A stretch of 6,218 bases of DNA from Candidatus Altarchaeota archaeon (GTDB taxonomy: Archaea; Altiarchaeota; Altiarchaeia; JAFGQM01), in the NCBI GenBank assembly GCA_016935655.1, contig JAFGQM010000013.1, positions 1 to 6,218 of the forward strand, read 5' to 3'. A program made the position numbers and the translations under genes. The notes under the pieces were generated by a model. The model did not search any database. It was given only the letters and a program-made list of their open reading frames with translations, and was not told the origin of the DNA. Of the stretch, positions 1-6,218 are shown one piece after another; within the stretch, counting starts at the first letter, position 1, and the number at the start of each line of letters is the position of its first letter.

Positions 1-569
1 AAACCCTGTTTTTTCAGATAATCCAATACGAAACTGACCAATGCGAACTCCAGGGTGACGGCCTCGTTCTTGAGATAATAGAAGCGCGCGCCACTGACCT
101 TTGCCGCCCTCTCTATGTCGATCAAGTCAAGGTCCTCGCCGAGCTCTATGTGGTTCTTCGGCTTGAAACTGAACTCCGGGGGCTTGCCCCATGTCTTGAT
201 GGTCTCGTTGTCATCCTCGCCCGCCCCTGCAGGCACGGACTCGTGGAGTATGTTGGGCATCTCGAGCATCATCGTGTTTATCTTCTCCCTGATCTTTTCC
301 ACTTCCTCCTCGGTCTTCGAGATGCTCTGGCTTATCTTCTTTACTCTTCCAATCCCGGACTCTATGTCCTTGCCCCCCTTCTTCGCAGCAGCTATCTCCT
401 GGTTTATGACATTCCTCTCGTGTTTCAAATCCTCCACCTTCTTCAGGTCCAGCCTCCAGTCCTCGTCCAGTTTCCTTATCTGGTCCACGACTGAGGTGTC
501 CATATCCCTCCTGCTGAGGGACTCCTTCACTACCTGCGGGGTCTCCCTTATCAGCTTGATGTCTATCAT
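1..569 (-). CDS. serS: Seryl-tRNA synthetase, N-terminal part (runs off window)
   Basis: Charges tRNA-Ser with serine in the cytoplasm. The first ~189 residues are visible, from ATG at 569-567; the frame is open to position 1 and the rest lies outside. It begins MIDIKLIRETPQVVKESL, the usual start of the bacterial-type SerRS. Residues ~30-105 are highly charged and helical, matching the long antiparallel coiled-coil arm that grips the tRNA-Ser variable arm (LDLKKVEDLKHERNVINQEI, then ISKTEEEVEKIREKI). The linker into the catalytic domain follows, with MPNILHESVPAGAGEDDNET and a WGKPPEF segment. Next come H-I-E-L-G-E-D-L-D-L-I-D and a GARFYYLKNEAVTLEFAL stretch, both family signatures. Motifs 2 and 3 are not in the window. 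The start overlaps the stop of the upstream 37-residue ORF (ATGA), so translation is probably coupled. This is not the rare methanogen-type SerRS, whose N-terminal domain differs. Confidence 0.95.
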   Translation of the reverse strand, partial: MIDIKLIRETPQVVKESLSRRDMDTSVVDQIRKLDEDWRLDLKKVEDLKHERNVINQEIAAAKKGGKDIESGIGRVKKISQSISKTEEEVEKIREKINTMMLEMPNILHESVPAGAGEDDNETIKTWGKPPEFSFKPKNHIELGEDLDLIDIERAAKVSGARFYYLKNEAVTLEFALVSFVLDYLKKQG

Positions 570-679
570 TTTTTTGCCATATATTCGTCCAGGAGCTGGA
601 TCATGTCATCGAGGACTACTGCGTCGAACTTCTTCTTCTGCCCGTCCACTTCGACGATGGCCTCGATTTTCTTGATCAT
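566..679 (-). CDS. 37-residue ORF translationally coupled between rps15 and serS
   Basis: I do not recognise this protein. It starts at ATG 679-677, overlapping the rps15 TGA (678-676), and ends at TGA 568-566, overlapping the serS ATG (569-567). It therefore sits in the operon with 4-nt ATGA overlaps on both sides. The peptide starts MIKKIEAIVEVDGQKKKFDA and ends VVLDDMIQLLDEYMAKK. Residues 2-22 alternate in a way that suggests a beta-hairpin (IEAIVEV, turn DGQKK, KFDAVVL), followed by an amphipathic helix (residues 24-36). There is no signal peptide, membrane segment or cysteine. The exact double overlap and the strand-strand-helix pattern argue for a real small protein rather than spacer. 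It could also serve only to pass ribosomes from rps15 to serS. Function is unknown. Confidence 0.6.
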   Translation of the reverse strand: MIKKIEAIVEVDGQKKKFDAVVLDDMIQLLDEYMAKK

Positions 680-1296: not shown

Positions 1297-1569
1297 ATGG
1301 ACCAGAAATTCAAAAGGATGTTTCTTTCCAGCTATAATACCAAAGCTCTTGTTTTTGTACTAGCAGTCGCATTATTTGCCTTCTGGTTCCATGGCTTAGG
1401 TGTGTGTTGAGATGGTGGGATAGGACCTTACGATTACTGCGACATTGGCTGCCACACTCTGATAGACTGCGAGACCCACGGAGTGATAAAGGAGGCTTGG
1501 TTCATCCCGATAATGATTCTGGTTTCTTATGCGATAGTATTTGCCATATTCTACTTTAAGACTAAATAG
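1297..1569 (+). CDS. Small two-TM cysteine-rich membrane protein with an in-frame TGA at codon 38
   Basis: Function is not recognised. Reading from ATG 1297 in one frame to TAG 1567-1569 gives 90 codons, broken only by TGA at 1408-1410 (codon 38). Before it: a basic start (MDQKFKRMFLSSYNTK) and a hydrophobic helix (residues ~17-34, ALVFVLAVALFAFWF), then G-L-G-V-C37. After it: a polar loop DGGIGPYDYCDIGC with Cys48, Cys52 and Cys58, then a second helix (WFIPIMILVSYAIVFAIFYF, ~68-87) and a basic K-T-K tail. The two halves make one coherent protein with both ends inside and a Cys-rich loop outside. No good start codon lies shortly after the TGA for a separate downstream gene. TGA is a normal stop for at least five other genes in this window. 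The TGA may encode selenocysteine (C-U pair), be a TGG/TGC-to-TGA nonsense mutation, or be a sequencing error; a pseudogene is quite possible. Confidence 0.6.
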
Positions 1570-1749: not shown

Positions 1750-2805
1750 CTATTTGCCTACGATATTGCCATACAACAGACCGGATAGGGTGGTGAACAC
1801 TATTATCAAAAGTATATAGACAAGCGTCCTCTTGCCGCCCATAAGTTTCCTTATGACCAATATCGTAGGTAGTGAGATTACGGGGTCTGCCAGTAAATAC
1901 GCGAGCAGCGGGCCCTTCGCCATGCCGAGCCCAAGGAACATCTTCGCCATCGGCACCTCTACAAGAGTGGGGAAGTACATGAAGACGCCGAAGAGGACTG
2001 CTGCTAACGTCGGTAGGAGCGTGTTAGTTCCGACATAGGTCCCCAGGAAGTTCTCGGGTATCAAAGCCGTGAGCACGCCTGCTGCAAACACCCCGACGAG
2101 TAAGAGCGGGAATATTATCCTAAGGAACATCTTGGTCTCATTCAGCCAGCTGCGTATCTCGTCTTTGGTGAAACATAATTTGAGTTGGACCACGAGGAAC
2201 GCGATCAGAGCCAGCATGCCACCTGTCTTCACGTCCAAACGTATCCCGGACGCACCGACTATGAGTATTGCAAAAAGTGTTACGAAGAACATGAGCAATT
2301 TCTTATAATGGCCCTTGGGTACCTTAACGTGGTCACAAGCCAGCTCCTTCTCTTCCTTTCTTTCCTCCTCCTTGAACAAGCGGCTTATTACGATGCCGAT
2401 GAGTATAGCGAATGAGACTGACAGGAGTATCCTGAAAAATGCAAAATCCCATCCGATCACGCTGCCGGTGAGGGTTATCGCGAGTATGTTGGTCGCAGGG
2501 GCCGTATAGAGGAACGCTATCGCGGGGCCTATGCCAGCTCCCTTCTTCTTTATACCTGCAAAGAGGGGAAGTATCGTGCACGAGCAGACAGCAAGGAACA
2601 GCGCAGCGCCGACTGCAAGGGGATATGCCTTGTAGATAGGGACTTTGCAGCCGAGGCGTTTTGTGATTATCTCCTTGGGCAAGAGAGCTGACATTGCACC
2701 TGCAATAAAGAAAGCTGGAATTAGACAAGTCAATACATGCGCCCAGAGGTAATCGCCAAGGGCTGCGATTCCAGCTCCAAATGCCTGAAACCATATGTCC
2801 GTCAT
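1750..2805 (-). CDS. ArsP-type permease (DUF318 family membrane transporter)
   Basis: Polytopic inner-membrane permease of 351 residues, full length for the family (ArsP_1/DUF318, which includes ArsP, an exporter of trivalent organoarsenicals). The signature is clear in the N-terminal half: AVCSCTILPLFAGIKKKGAG (residues 72-91) followed by G-P-A-I-A-F-L-Y-T-A-P-A-T-N. The mirrored half holds F-P-T-L-V-E-V-P-M-A-K-M-F and a D-P-V-I-S-L-P-T segment (~278-314). Roughly eight to ten hydrophobic helices flank a charged central loop (~142-168) with Cys157 and His159. Cys74 and Cys76 form a CSC motif inside a membrane segment. It is the last gene of the operon and overlaps the thioredoxin-like gene by 4 nt (ATGA). 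Substrate is inferred only from context: arsenicals, or another soft metal(loid), since some relatives have been linked to Cu/Zn export. Confidence 0.85.
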   Translation of the reverse strand: MTDIWFQAFGAGIAALGDYLWAHVLTCLIPAFFIAGAMSALLPKEIITKRLGCKVPIYKAYPLAVGAALFLAVCSCTILPLFAGIKKKGAGIGPAIAFLYTAPATNILAITLTGSVIGWDFAFFRILLSVSFAILIGIVISRLFKEEERKEEKELACDHVKVPKGHYKKLLMFFVTLFAILIVGASGIRLDVKTGGMLALIAFLVVQLKLCFTKDEIRSWLNETKMFLRIIFPLLLVGVFAAGVLTALIPENFLGTYVGTNTLLPTLAAVLFGVFMYFPTLVEVPMAKMFLGLGMAKGPLLAYLLADPVISLPTILVIRKLMGGKRTLVYILLIIVFTTLSGLLYGNIVGK

Positions 2806-3020
2806 TTTTTGAGTTTTCTTATATCTTCTGGGGACAACACCTTCCCGGAACTAACGACTTTTCCATCAACGACTAATGCAGGTGTCATCATAACACCGGC
2901 TTCGAGTATTTTGTCTAGGTCCTCCACTTTCTCCACCTTTGCCCCTGGGAAGGCCTTCTTGGCGTTCTCCAGCAGCTGTTTGCATTTTGGGCATCCCGTC
3001 CCAAGAACCTGTATGTTCAT
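2802..3020 (-). CDS. Small thioredoxin-like redox-active disulfide protein (CPKC)
   Basis: A 72-residue cytoplasmic mini-thioredoxin of the glutaredoxin-like Thioredoxin_3 type common in archaea. It opens M-N-I-Q-V-L-G-T-G-C-P-K-C-K, with the catalytic pair Cys10-Pro-Lys-Cys13 straight after the first beta strand. The cis-proline loop is M-M-T-P-A-L-V-V-D-G-K-V (Pro47), and the C-terminus ends in the usual V-L-S-P-E-D-I-R-K-L helix. There is no signal peptide. It starts 17 nt after the CcdA-like gene and overlaps the permease start (ATGA). Proteins of this type often sit next to DUF318 permeases. The inferred role is thiol exchange with the CcdA-like protein or reduction of substrate before export. 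Confidence 0.9.
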   Translation of the reverse strand: MNIQVLGTGCPKCKQLLENAKKAFPGAKVEKVEDLDKILEAGVMMTPALVVDGKVVSSGKVLSPEDIRKLKK

Positions 3021-3037
3021 TTTAGACTATTCCCAGT

Positions 3038-3745
3038 TTAAGCGAAAACGAGTATCAAATAATAGCCACCTATCACCAAGAAGATTACCCCCACGGCCTT
3101 GCGCATATACGCCTCAGCCTTTTGGACCTTCTTCACCGCAGACGCCAGCTTTGAGACACTCTTTGCGAGGATTATAGAGAGGATTATCACGGGCAGGCCC
3201 GTGGCGAAGGCAAAGACCGACGGTATTATTATCGCGTCACCAGCCCGCATCGCTATCGGTATCAGCATCGCGAAGAAGAGGACAGCACTGAACGGGCAGA
3301 AGGCAAGGGCGAAGACCGCGCCAAGGAAGAACGCCCCGAGATACCCCTTCTGGGCAAGCTTGGCCTTCAGCGAGTCCATGCGGCCGGAGCTGGGCAGCTT
3401 GAGCTTGACTATCTCCAGCATGACCACCCCCGCGAATATCATCAATGGGCCAAGGATTATATCGCCGTACTGCTGGAGCGCCAATGAAATGGAGCGGGTG
3501 CTAAGGCCGGCCCAGACTATCAGGACGGCTATTGTAGTATACGTGAACACGCGGCCGAGGGTGTACAAGAAACCGGTTATGAGGGTCGCTTTCGCGCTCT
3601 GCATCTTCCTCGAGGTATATGCTATCGCCGCTATGTTGGATGCGAGGGGGCAGGGGCTGATGGCGGTCATAAGGCCGATGAAAAAGGCTGCTATTATGGG
3701 GATATTGCTAGTTCCCATAGCTTCCATAAAACCCATAAAGTCCAT
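3038..3745 (-). CDS. CcdA/DsbD-like membrane thiol transporter (ArsG-like family)
   Basis: Integral membrane protein of 235 residues with about six helices, matching CcdA (the DsbD transmembrane domain), which passes electrons across the membrane through two buried cysteines. Those cysteines are visible in paired motifs: A-I-S-P-C-P-L-A-S-N (Cys32) in helix 1 and A-F-C-P-F-S-A-V-L-F (Cys150) in helix 4. The SPCPLASNIAAIAY form together with an ArsF-like neighbour fits the ArsG-like subgroup. I chose ATG 3745 because a start at 3805 would overlap the cupin gene by 38 nt and add a 20-residue polar extension not expected of the family; 3745 leaves a 22-nt gap. Inferred job: supplying reducing power to the ArsF-like extracytoplasmic domain, or moving the toxicant itself. 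Whether ArsG-like proteins transport substrate or only electrons cannot be told from sequence. Confidence 0.85.
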   Translation of the reverse strand: MDFMGFMEAMGTSNIPIIAAFFIGLMTAISPCPLASNIAAIAYTSRKMQSAKATLITGFLYTLGRVFTYTTIAVLIVWAGLSTRSISLALQQYGDIILGPLMIFAGVVMLEIVKLKLPSSGRMDSLKAKLAQKGYLGAFFLGAVFALAFCPFSAVLFFAMLIPIAMRAGDAIIIPSVFAFATGLPVIILSIILAKSVSKLASAVKKVQKAEAYMRKAVGVIFLVIGGYYLILVFA

Positions 3746-3767
3746 CTTAGTTTTAATCAAATAATTC

Positions 3768-4079
3768 TCAAGACTTGGCCCTGTCTTGTATGCCGAGAAC
3801 AACAAGGTCCTCTTCCGCCTTTATGCCCCTTGTCTCGCCCTGCTTGATGTATATACTCTGGTTTTTTTCCAATGTGAAGGCGCCCCTCCCGTCGGTGAAC
3901 ACGCCCCTTCCACTGAGAACCGTCAGGAGCACCCCGTAGTCTTCAGCATGGGGCTCAAGCTCGAAGCCGGCTTTAAAGTAGATCACAGCTGCGTGAAAGC
4001 CCTTTGCGTTCAGGAAATGCCTCTTGATCGGCTTCTCCGGGGAAAACGCAATCTTTTCGTTCAAGTCATATGTTTTCAT
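3768..4079 (-). CDS. Small single-domain cupin protein
   Basis: A 103-residue cytoplasmic protein with one cupin barrel. Motif 1 is recognisable as K-A-G-F-E-L-E-P-H-A-E-D-Y-G-V-L-L-T-V-L, followed by S-G-R-G-V-F, with His44. The second expected histidine of the usual HxH is Glu46. Motif 2 (S-I-Y-I-K-Q-G-E-T-R-G-I-K-A) lacks the normal P-x-x-H histidine, so metal binding is probably weak or different. I chose ATG 4079 (MKTYDLNEKIAF), 16 nt after the ArsF-like stop; the upstream ATG at 4115 would add a basic 12-residue tail and overlap the previous gene by 20 nt. Its operon position suggests a part in thiol or metal handling, or ligand sensing, but nothing in it shows a reaction. Confidence 0.8.
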   Translation of the reverse strand: MKTYDLNEKIAFSPEKPIKRHFLNAKGFHAAVIYFKAGFELEPHAEDYGVLLTVLSGRGVFTDGRGAFTLEKNQSIYIKQGETRGIKAEEDLVVLGIQDRAKS

Positions 4080-4095
4080 CTTGCTTCGTTTTTTC

Positions 4096-4698
4096 CTAGG
4101 ACATGTCGCCGGCAAGCCGCTTATCGAGAACGCCCTTAAGGTAGCTCAGATAGCCCTTCTCATCGCTAAGCTTGTACCAGACAGTCGTGTCCTCCTCTTT
4201 GTGGAATTCACTGCCTACAGTCGTCCCTATCCAAAGGGAAGATCCCGTGGCACCAAACTTGTCAGCGAGCGCGGAGTTCTCGGAAAGGTCATAATTGATA
4301 TGACCGAACACCAGCCCCCCAGAGGCCATCTCATCTGCAAAATAGGTCTTCACCGTCTTCTCGGCCAGCTGTCCCAAAAGGACGCATGAATAACATTGGT
4401 GGTCGCCGTGGAAGTGGTAGACTTCGACCTTTACGCTTGAGGAACTATTATCTAAGCTCTCACAAGAATTTTCAGGGGACCAATCACATGCCTCAACTGA
4501 GCTTTGATTGTTCGACCCCCTATCAGAACCCATGGAAGGAGTATTATCTGCAATACCAGCCGTACAACAGGGCCCCATGGTACCAACCCATATAAAAGCT
4601 ATTATTAAACCGGCAAGTATTGCTATGATGACCATCGTTTGCAGATCCCAACGTTTCTTTTTTCCAGATTTTTTGTTTGGTTCTTTCGGGGCCATCAT
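4096..4698 (-). CDS. ArsF-like membrane-anchored thioredoxin-fold protein
   Basis: A 200-residue protein. A Lys-rich start (residues 1-17) and one hydrophobic helix (~20-40, TMVIIAILAGLIIAFIWV) should anchor it with the C-terminus outside. Next comes a Ser/Asn-rich linker (~45-88) containing Cys44, Cys45, Cys71 and Cys79. The thioredoxin-like domain (~89-195) opens V-E-V-Y-H-F-H-G-D-H-Q-C-Y-S-C, giving a Cys102-Tyr-Ser-Cys105 active-site pair; the YxFHG-x-x-x-C-x-x-C pattern resembles the ArsF family of arsEFG operons. No proline is present anywhere in this domain, so the usual cis-Pro loop is absent; the equivalent place reads T-G-S-S-L-W-I-G. Start ATG 4698 overlaps the ArsR stop (ATGA); a second Met follows at 4695. 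A role as partner of the CcdA/ArsG-like protein is inferred from gene order. Confidence 0.8.
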   Translation of the reverse strand: MMAPKEPNKKSGKKKRWDLQTMVIIAILAGLIIAFIWVGTMGPCCTAGIADNTPSMGSDRGSNNQSSVEACDWSPENSCESLDNSSSSVKVEVYHFHGDHQCYSCVLLGQLAEKTVKTYFADEMASGGLVFGHINYDLSENSALADKFGATGSSLWIGTTVGSEFHKEEDTTVWYKLSDEKGYLSYLKGVLDKRLAGDMS

Positions 4699-4961
4699 TT
4701 GCAGGTTTTTATGTTCTTTGAAAAATCGATCAGTCTCAGTACCTCAGGGCAGCAGACGCTGTACATAATCTTCGTACCATCGCGGCGGGATTTAAGAATC
4801 CGAGCCTCTTTAAGCACCTTCAGATGTTGGGAAACAGTCGGCTGCGCACGCCCTACAGCCGGGGGTATCTCGCAGGCGCACCTCTCCTTATCCCTGAGGA
4901 ACAACACTATCCTGAGGCGGGTCTCATCCCCCAAGGCACTGAATATTCTTACCGAGTCCAT
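4695..4961 (-). CDS. arsR: ArsR/SmtB-family metal(loid)-responsive repressor
   Basis: An 88-residue dimeric winged-helix repressor, of normal length for the family. It begins MDSVRIFSALGDETRLRIVL, the standard first helices. The recognition helix region is R-A-Q-P-T-V-S-Q-H-L-K-V-L-K-E-A (39-54), and the wing is R-R-D-G-T-K-I-M-Y-S-V (59-69). The metal-site helix reads E-R-C-A-C-E-I, giving Cys28-x-Cys30, equivalent to the Cys pair of ArsR that binds As(III)/Sb(III). Extra cysteines at 70, 71 and 87 could add ligands. It is the first gene of a six-gene operon and overlaps the next gene (ATGA). A palindrome over its own start and TATA box suggests self-repression, released when metal(loid) binds. 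The exact inducer cannot be told from sequence. Confidence 0.93.
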   Translation of the reverse strand: MDSVRIFSALGDETRLRIVLFLRDKERCACEIPPAVGRAQPTVSQHLKVLKEARILKSRRDGTKIMYSVCCPEVLRLIDFSKNIKTCK

Positions 4962-5088: not shown

Positions 5089-6218
5089 ATGGCTAAGGAT
5101 GTACTATTGGGCTTGTTCGTGATTCTGTTGCTACCGACAGTCCTAGCCACCGACTACTACGTGGACAAGTCCGGTATAAGCGGGACTTGCGCAGATGCCA
5201 ACCCCGGAACTATAATGCAACCCTGGTGCACGATAAACAAGGCCGTCCAGACTGTAAGGGCCGGCGACACCGTTTACATAAGGCAGGGCGTCTATTACGA
5301 GTCCCTGACCATGCAGAACTCCGGCGCGCCCGGGAACCCCATAACCTTCAAGGCCTACCCAGGAGACGAGTGCAAGGGCGAGTATGCCGGTTTGAAGAGC
5401 GATTGTGGAGTGGTAATCGATGGCTCATATGTATTAAGCGGCACATGGCAGAGGGACGGCGGGGACATTTATTATATTGACGTCCCGGACGGCGTCCTAA
5501 CCCAAGCGGGCAAGGACTCGGTCTTCGTGGAGGGCGATAGATTCCGGTATGCTACAGAACCGGACCAGGCGACCCCCTACTTCAACTACGGCAACTACAA
5601 CATTGCCCAGAGCATGACCGAGTCCAGCGTCTACGACCCGGTAAACCTTAACCAAGCCAACGGGTTCTGGACGGGAGGTTACGTGAAATTCAGGTTCACG
5701 GACAGCTCGCACCGCATAAGGGAGATCACAGGTTTCACCTCGAACACGCTCTCGTTCGACCCGCTTGACATCGATATAGGCAATTTACATGACGGGAAGT
5801 ACACTTACATCATGATAAACCACCTGTCCTTATTAGACCAGCCGGGCGAGTTCTACATAGACTACAAATCCAGCCCCAAGAGGCTTTATCTTATAACTCT
5901 GGACCGGCAGTCGCCGCAGGGGCAAGTAGTCTCCATAAACCACAGGTCTAAGGGTATCTACATGAACTATAAGAGTTATATAAGAATAGAGGGCCTTGAG
6001 ATCAGGAAACACCGGGGTGGCGCGATAGACATCCAAGATTACTACCACAGCGACATAGACGGCATAGATGTAGTGAACAACTACATACATGACAACGGCA
6101 ACCCGGAGGGGATATTCTACGAGGGCGGCGACGGCGTGGCGGCTCAGAACGTCAGGGGCCTCCTGGTGGAGAACAACGAGTTCTTCAGGAACTCCATCAG
6201 CGCCATAGTCTTCGGGGG
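5089..6218 (+). CDS. Secreted right-handed parallel beta-helix protein, N-terminal part (runs off window)
   Basis: Extracellular or cell-surface protein; 376 codons are visible and the frame is open at the window end. Residues 1-20 (MAKDVLLGLFVILLLPTVLA) form a signal peptide, probably cut after L-A. Residues ~22-112 carry the typical first coil of pectate-lyase-like proteins: T-D-Y-Y-V-D-K-S-G, P-W-C-T-I-N-K-A-V, A-G-D-T-V-Y-I-R-Q-G-V-Y, then A-P-G-N-P-I-T-F-K-A-Y-P-G-D and V-V-I-D-G-S. A long insert (~113-265) follows, then L-L-D-Q-P-G-E-F-Y-I-D, common in this family. From ~290, coil repeats appear (S-Y-I-R-I-E-G-L-E-I, I-D-V-V-N-N-Y-I-H-D-N-G, L-L-V-E-N-N-E-F-F-R-N). Such proteins include polysaccharide lyases, glycan-binding proteins and archaeal surface adhesins; catalytic residues cannot be assigned. 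Cys34, Cys47, Cys95 and Cys106 could form disulfides. It is divergent from the ArsR operon and probably unrelated to it. Confidence 0.88.
   Translation, partial: MAKDVLLGLFVILLLPTVLATDYYVDKSGISGTCADANPGTIMQPWCTINKAVQTVRAGDTVYIRQGVYYESLTMQNSGAPGNPITFKAYPGDECKGEYAGLKSDCGVVIDGSYVLSGTWQRDGGDIYYIDVPDGVLTQAGKDSVFVEGDRFRYATEPDQATPYFNYGNYNIAQSMTESSVYDPVNLNQANGFWTGGYVKFRFTDSSHRIREITGFTSNTLSFDPLDIDIGNLHDGKYTYIMINHLSLLDQPGEFYIDYKSSPKRLYLITLDRQSPQGQVVSINHRSKGIYMNYKSYIRIEGLEIRKHRGGAIDIQDYYHSDIDGIDVVNNYIHDNGNPEGIFYEGGDGVAAQNVRGLLVENNEFFRNSISAIVFG

Follow-up and report, generated by a model that had tools for sequence, protein, structure and literature searches.

The small ORF and its in-frame TGA

Does the in-frame TGA of a small membrane-protein gene encode selenocysteine (Sec), or is it an ordinary stop codon? 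The question is raised by an ORF at nt 1297–1569 on the plus strand of a 6,218 nt stretch of DNA, all of which was analysed (the window). The ORF has 90 codons from the ATG at 1297 and is open save for a TGA at codon 38. The sequence-only reading had offered it as a candidate for recoding, and its description of the frame was confirmed: 37 residues are followed by TGA (1408–1410), 52 further residues and a TAG (1567–1569), and the codon just 5′ of the TGA is TGT (1405–1407). The features of the region are as follows.

1246–1255, + strand: TATA-box-like sequence TTTATAAAAA, about 42 bases 5′ of the ATG; a candidate promoter for the small ORF
1297–1407, + strand: N half, 37 codons with a basic N-terminus and a single hydrophobic helix, read from the frame; weak codon score (−4.6)
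1408–1410, + strand: in-frame TGA, codon 38, read from the frame
1411–1566, + strand: C half, open for 52 codons that specify a Cys-rich loop, a second hydrophobic helix and a Lys-rich end; codon score +4.7
1567–1569, + strand: TAG closing the joined frame, read from the frame
1570–1749, + strand: stretch between the TAG and the convergent ArsP-like gene, in which a search gave no SECIS element

The two hydrophobic stretches and the Cys-rich loop that had been described are present, the maximum 19-residue Kyte-Doolittle means being 2.3 and 2.44, and the joined product would probably be a two-helix membrane protein with its Cys-rich loop outside the cell. An AlphaFold2 model of this product, made from the single sequence, has helices at residues 3–32, 63–67 and 69–89, with a low-confidence mean pLDDT of 62.7 and values below 50 at residues 39–57 and 59–62. 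It consists only of helices and a loop without confident structure and, given the low pLDDT and the single-sequence input, adds little. The TTTATAAAAA element has a single exact match in the window; the chance expectation is 0.44 matches at one mismatch or fewer, and 59 of 200 shuffles had at least one, so the promoter reading is weak.

With one hydrophobic stretch per half, the region might instead specify two separate membrane peptides, one of 37 residues and another starting from, e.g., GTG 1483 (28 residues, comprising the second helix). However, no in-frame ATG is present close to where the C half begins, and initiation at 1483 would leave the Cys-rich loop untranslated despite the same open frame, so that this arrangement is considered improbable. 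An alternative ORF from GTG 1404 was also rejected, the other two plus-strand frames of the C half scoring −43 and −74 against +4.7, differences that are partly due to the stop penalty.

Neighbouring genes and the use of TGA

Elsewhere in the window TGA is an ordinary stop, as had been claimed: of the eight complete neighbouring ORFs accepted as genes, five have TGA as their stop, and four of these five share an ATGA with the start of the following gene. From this gene arrangement, TGA is read as a working stop in the organism. Between the genes for rpS15 and SerRS is a 37-codon ORF (566–679, minus strand) that overlaps each of its neighbours by an ATGA; tblastn at 1e-3 gave no match to it in the first 36 loci.

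The ORF had been placed beside a thiol-redox operon, an identification that has to be replaced. By their Pfam and NCBIfam names, the minus-strand neighbours are ArsR, an ArsF family protein, ArsG, an ArsE-type thioredoxin and an ArsP-like permease, i.e., an ars operon on the opposite strand. This operon (1750–4961) also holds a weak cupin match. The ArsP-like gene and the small ORF converge, ending at 1750 and 1569, respectively, and the small ORF lies outside the operon. Its neighbour on the other side, rpS15, is divergent. At the right of the window (5089–6216, plus strand) is the start of a large right-handed beta-helix protein (Beta_helix, E 1.8e-8), probably secreted, which runs off the window.

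Placement of the window

The window rpS15 groups with that of locus L009 in genome G001 (support 99/97; 62% identity over 115 residues). In a 37-row rpS15 tree, four Altiarchaeota/Altiarchaeales rows are apart from the window–L009 pair, the deeper branching of which is unsupported. The genome collection assigns G001 to a phylum of 29 genomes that also includes G005 (L004) and G010 (L023), titled Altiarchaeota and Altiarchaeales. For the N-terminal part of SerRS, identities are 52% with G001, 38% with G005 and 37% with G036, and the other three of the six genomes searched gave no match.

The ArsG-like gene is 54–59% identical to genes in five of the 29 genomes of the phylum, G001 not being among them. 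In regions fetched round the ArsG-like matches, the best identities are 52% for ArsR, 57% for the thioredoxin, 60% for ArsG, and 64% for both ArsF and ArsP. A tblastn search of plasmids with the ArsP-like protein found a single record, from Leptolinea (51%), which was uninformative. The ars genes may have moved between lineages. Based on rpS15, SerRS, the collection phylum of G001 and the ars gene identities, the source of the window is best placed in or near Altiarchaeota.

Search for relatives

Intact orthologs were not found in the collections and genomes searched. The joined 90-residue frame had no match in the protein collection, the genome contigs or the viral contigs, nor in Pfam, NCBIfam, PHROGs, PDB sequences or phage records, and the protein collection gave no homolog with Cys at the TGA position. 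A search with the C half alone was empty, and neither half taken separately matched PHROGs.

Among 388 distinct genomes (G001–G388), searched with E limits of 1, 0.01 and then 0.001, no relative was accepted, and hence no residue could be aligned to codon 38. Only three weak matches appeared, and the empty answers from the other genomes, lacking a positive control, show little. The match in G001 (E 0.04, 27% identity) lies, by its reckoned place in L037, antisense to a 355-codon ORF; that in G005 (E 0.05, 31%) has two internal stops, and that in G019 (E 0.008, 23%) has one internal TAG. All three were discarded. When both halves were compared with all fetched loci by permissive tblastn, the best E values were 0.017 (L039) and 0.022 (L038), both at the places of weak matches already discarded.

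Gene order gave the same outcome. Upstream of rpS15 in the nearest genome (L009) is a long divergent ORF (377 aa, 8659–9792), with no recognisable small membrane gene, and in the ars-carrying regions L062–L069 the best BLAST match to the small ORF reached only E 0.54.

Coding character of the two halves

The sequence-only reading held that the two halves belong to one protein. A codon model was trained on 1802 codons from ten window genes. In the proposed frame the C half scores +4.7, and its five alternative frames score −3.5 to −74.3; the N half scores −4.6 against −19.9 to −29.0. These advantages are partly due to the stop penalty. The −3.5 frame of the C half is antisense and only about 8 below the proposed frame, so the strand of the C half is told less sharply than its phase. 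The GC3 of the N half is 0.43, against 0.67 in window genes.

Of 5000 dinucleotide shuffles of the C half, 119 were open, and none was open with a codon score at least as high as the real one or with equal hydrophobicity. The N half is less distinctive: 697 of its 5000 shuffles were open, six of these reaching its codon score and nine its hydrophobicity. The TGA is thus flanked by coding sequence on both sides, clearly so in the C half and weakly in the N half, a feature looked for in selenoprotein genes.

An empirical null was built from 660 kb of fetched loci, which represent several archaeal groups and partly overlap. It consists of 64 ORFs of 25–70 codons that begin with ATG, end at any stop and lie outside large ORFs; those with a GTG or TTG start, those sharing more than 30 bases with a 100-codon ORF and those cut by the edge of a locus were left out. 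Of the 64, 10 stayed open for at least 45 codons past the stop, so an open extension alone is common, while in none did both parts reach 2.0 on the hydrophobicity scale used above.

These figures bear on whether the frame is one of chance, in which the TGA is the true stop of a 37-codon ORF, whether this encodes a short peptide or is not a gene at all, and the next 52 codons are untranslated. The negative codon score of the N half, the frequency of long open extensions past the stop in short intergenic ORFs, and the lack of homologs for the joined frame and C half and of PHROGs matches for either half are all compatible with this. Against it stand the C half shuffles, none of which matched the real sequence, and the absence of doubly hydrophobic ORFs among the 64. 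The coding character of the C half makes one interrupted gene likelier than chance, and the chance frame, although unlikely, ranks next after it. The claim that both halves form one protein is thus upheld by the statistics of the C half and the empirical null, and left weak by those of the N half.

Selenocysteine machinery

A TGA that follows a Cys codon within a Cys-rich loop, with the second half intact, speaks for decoding of codon 38 as Sec, which would give a Cys-Sec pair in the outer loop. Four components of the Sec pathway were searched for in the 29 genomes of the phylum, which are relatives of the source genome and not that genome itself, and for which completeness is not given. None reached the curated cut-offs for tRNA-Sec (47 bits), SepSecS (224.85), SelD (125) or PSTK (290.5); in 15 of the 29, scoring for tRNA-Sec covered only 100 of the tRNA candidates from the first look. 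Among 14 known genomes used as controls, five exceeded the cut-off for tRNA-Sec, two for SelD, one for PSTK, and only Methanocaldococcus jannaschii for SepSecS.

Matches below the cut-offs were frequent: tRNA-Sec in 26 of the 29 genomes (best 46.5 bits), SepSecS in 13 (best 27.5), SelD in all 29 (best 91.8) and PSTK in 14 (best 66.5). The 46.5-bit match is read by ARAGORN as tRNA-Ser, and the loci of the other best tRNA-Sec matches (ten genomes in all) as Leu, Ser, Arg, Lys, Gly, Cys, Pro and Gln; the anticodon TCA was absent from the tRNAs in the loci of these ten genomes' best matches. The SelD and PSTK matches may reflect related PurM-like proteins and kinases. Two of the PSTK-like matches are at G016:C44:27876–28400 (L073, 66.5 bits) and G014:C30:8195–8662 (L074, 60.3), and the former has one in-frame TGA.

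In the relevant passages of the literature, Sec use in archaea before the Asgard archaea is described as detected only in Methanococcales and Methanopyrales (PMC11227280), the AK8/W8A-19 group is added to the users, and Altiarchaeales are named for SepRS, not for Sec (PMC5424206).

SECIS and RNA structure

A SECIS element of the archaeal type was sought as a GAA_A bulge with three S-S pairs in the upper stem, constraints taken from a passage of PMC11227280. A scan of 1132–1749, made without indels, gave no strong candidates and one loose match, at 1699, with a single S-S pair. The matches to Rfam families in the window all fell far short of the cut-off, and no SECIS family was among them; the Asgard type of SECIS, which is eukaryote-like, was sought via Rfam only. 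The 1570–1749 stretch, pointed to earlier as a place for such an element, yielded no SECIS and folds like its shuffles (z −0.37), and the sequence around the TGA also folds no better than shuffles (z +1.24).

With no machinery over cut-off in 29 relatives, and neither a SECIS nor a homolog for comparison found, the proposal of Sec recoding is not sustained, and we consider it highly improbable. It would be possible only if the organism has machinery not found in the sampled relatives. Least probable of all is that a two-helix membrane protein with a Cys-Sec pair represents a selenoprotein family not seen before, in a lineage close to Altiarchaeota that, in contrast to its 29 sampled relatives, possesses Sec machinery of its own. 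The intact second half would also suit programmed or leaky read-through of the UGA by a near-cognate tRNA (e.g., that for Trp), yielding a little 90-residue protein beside the 37-residue peptide. However, the structure near the TGA is no stronger than in shuffles and the relatives searched show no counterpart, and such read-through is judged very improbable.

A probable interrupted gene

The second half of the frame is open and has coding character. The reading we prefer, with a probability of about 0.6, is a lineage-specific gene for a protein with two transmembrane helices, in which codon 38 is an ordinary nonsense codon produced by mutation or by sequence error. The sequence-only reading had named a nonsense mutation or sequencing error as an alternative equally open; the alternative is taken up here, and the equality is not, as the lack of machinery in relatives and of a SECIS ranks it above recoding. 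Since nothing was found that shows read-through as Sec, an ordinary broken gene or sequence error is most likely.

Such a gene would have about 90 codons and specify a small two-helix membrane protein with a Cys-rich, probably extracellular loop. In this contig it would carry a nonsense codon at position 38, the TGA acting as an ordinary stop at which translation presumably terminates, so that at most a 37-residue, one-helix peptide would be made. The cause could be a recent point mutation, an allele carried by a minority of the population or an erroneous base in the assembly. The change is probably recent because the second half has no further stop or frameshift. As no intact relative was found in anything searched, the former uninterrupted form of the gene is inferred rather than seen. 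The weak statistics of the N half and the close antisense score of the C half are points against the interrupted gene.

Comparison with known systems

Like the archaeal selenoprotein genes of Methanococcales, Methanopyrus and Asgard archaea, the small ORF has an in-frame TGA near cysteines in a frame that is otherwise open. In contrast to them, neither an eaSECIS nor a Cys homolog was found for it and it has no Pfam or NCBIfam match, and the 29 genomes of the phylum have no Sec machinery over cut-off. If the codon were recoded, Sec use would extend to a phylum without machinery over cut-off in the 29 genomes searched, and a membrane selenoprotein family would be added. A single in-frame TGA without relatives or machinery should not be taken for recoding. 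Interrupted genes (nonsense alleles, young pseudogenes) differ from the small ORF in that no intact relative of the latter was found for comparison. With these, and with base errors in metagenome assemblies, it shares a lone stop and a second half that is still coding-like, and an orphan gene with a nonsense codon is the most likely explanation.
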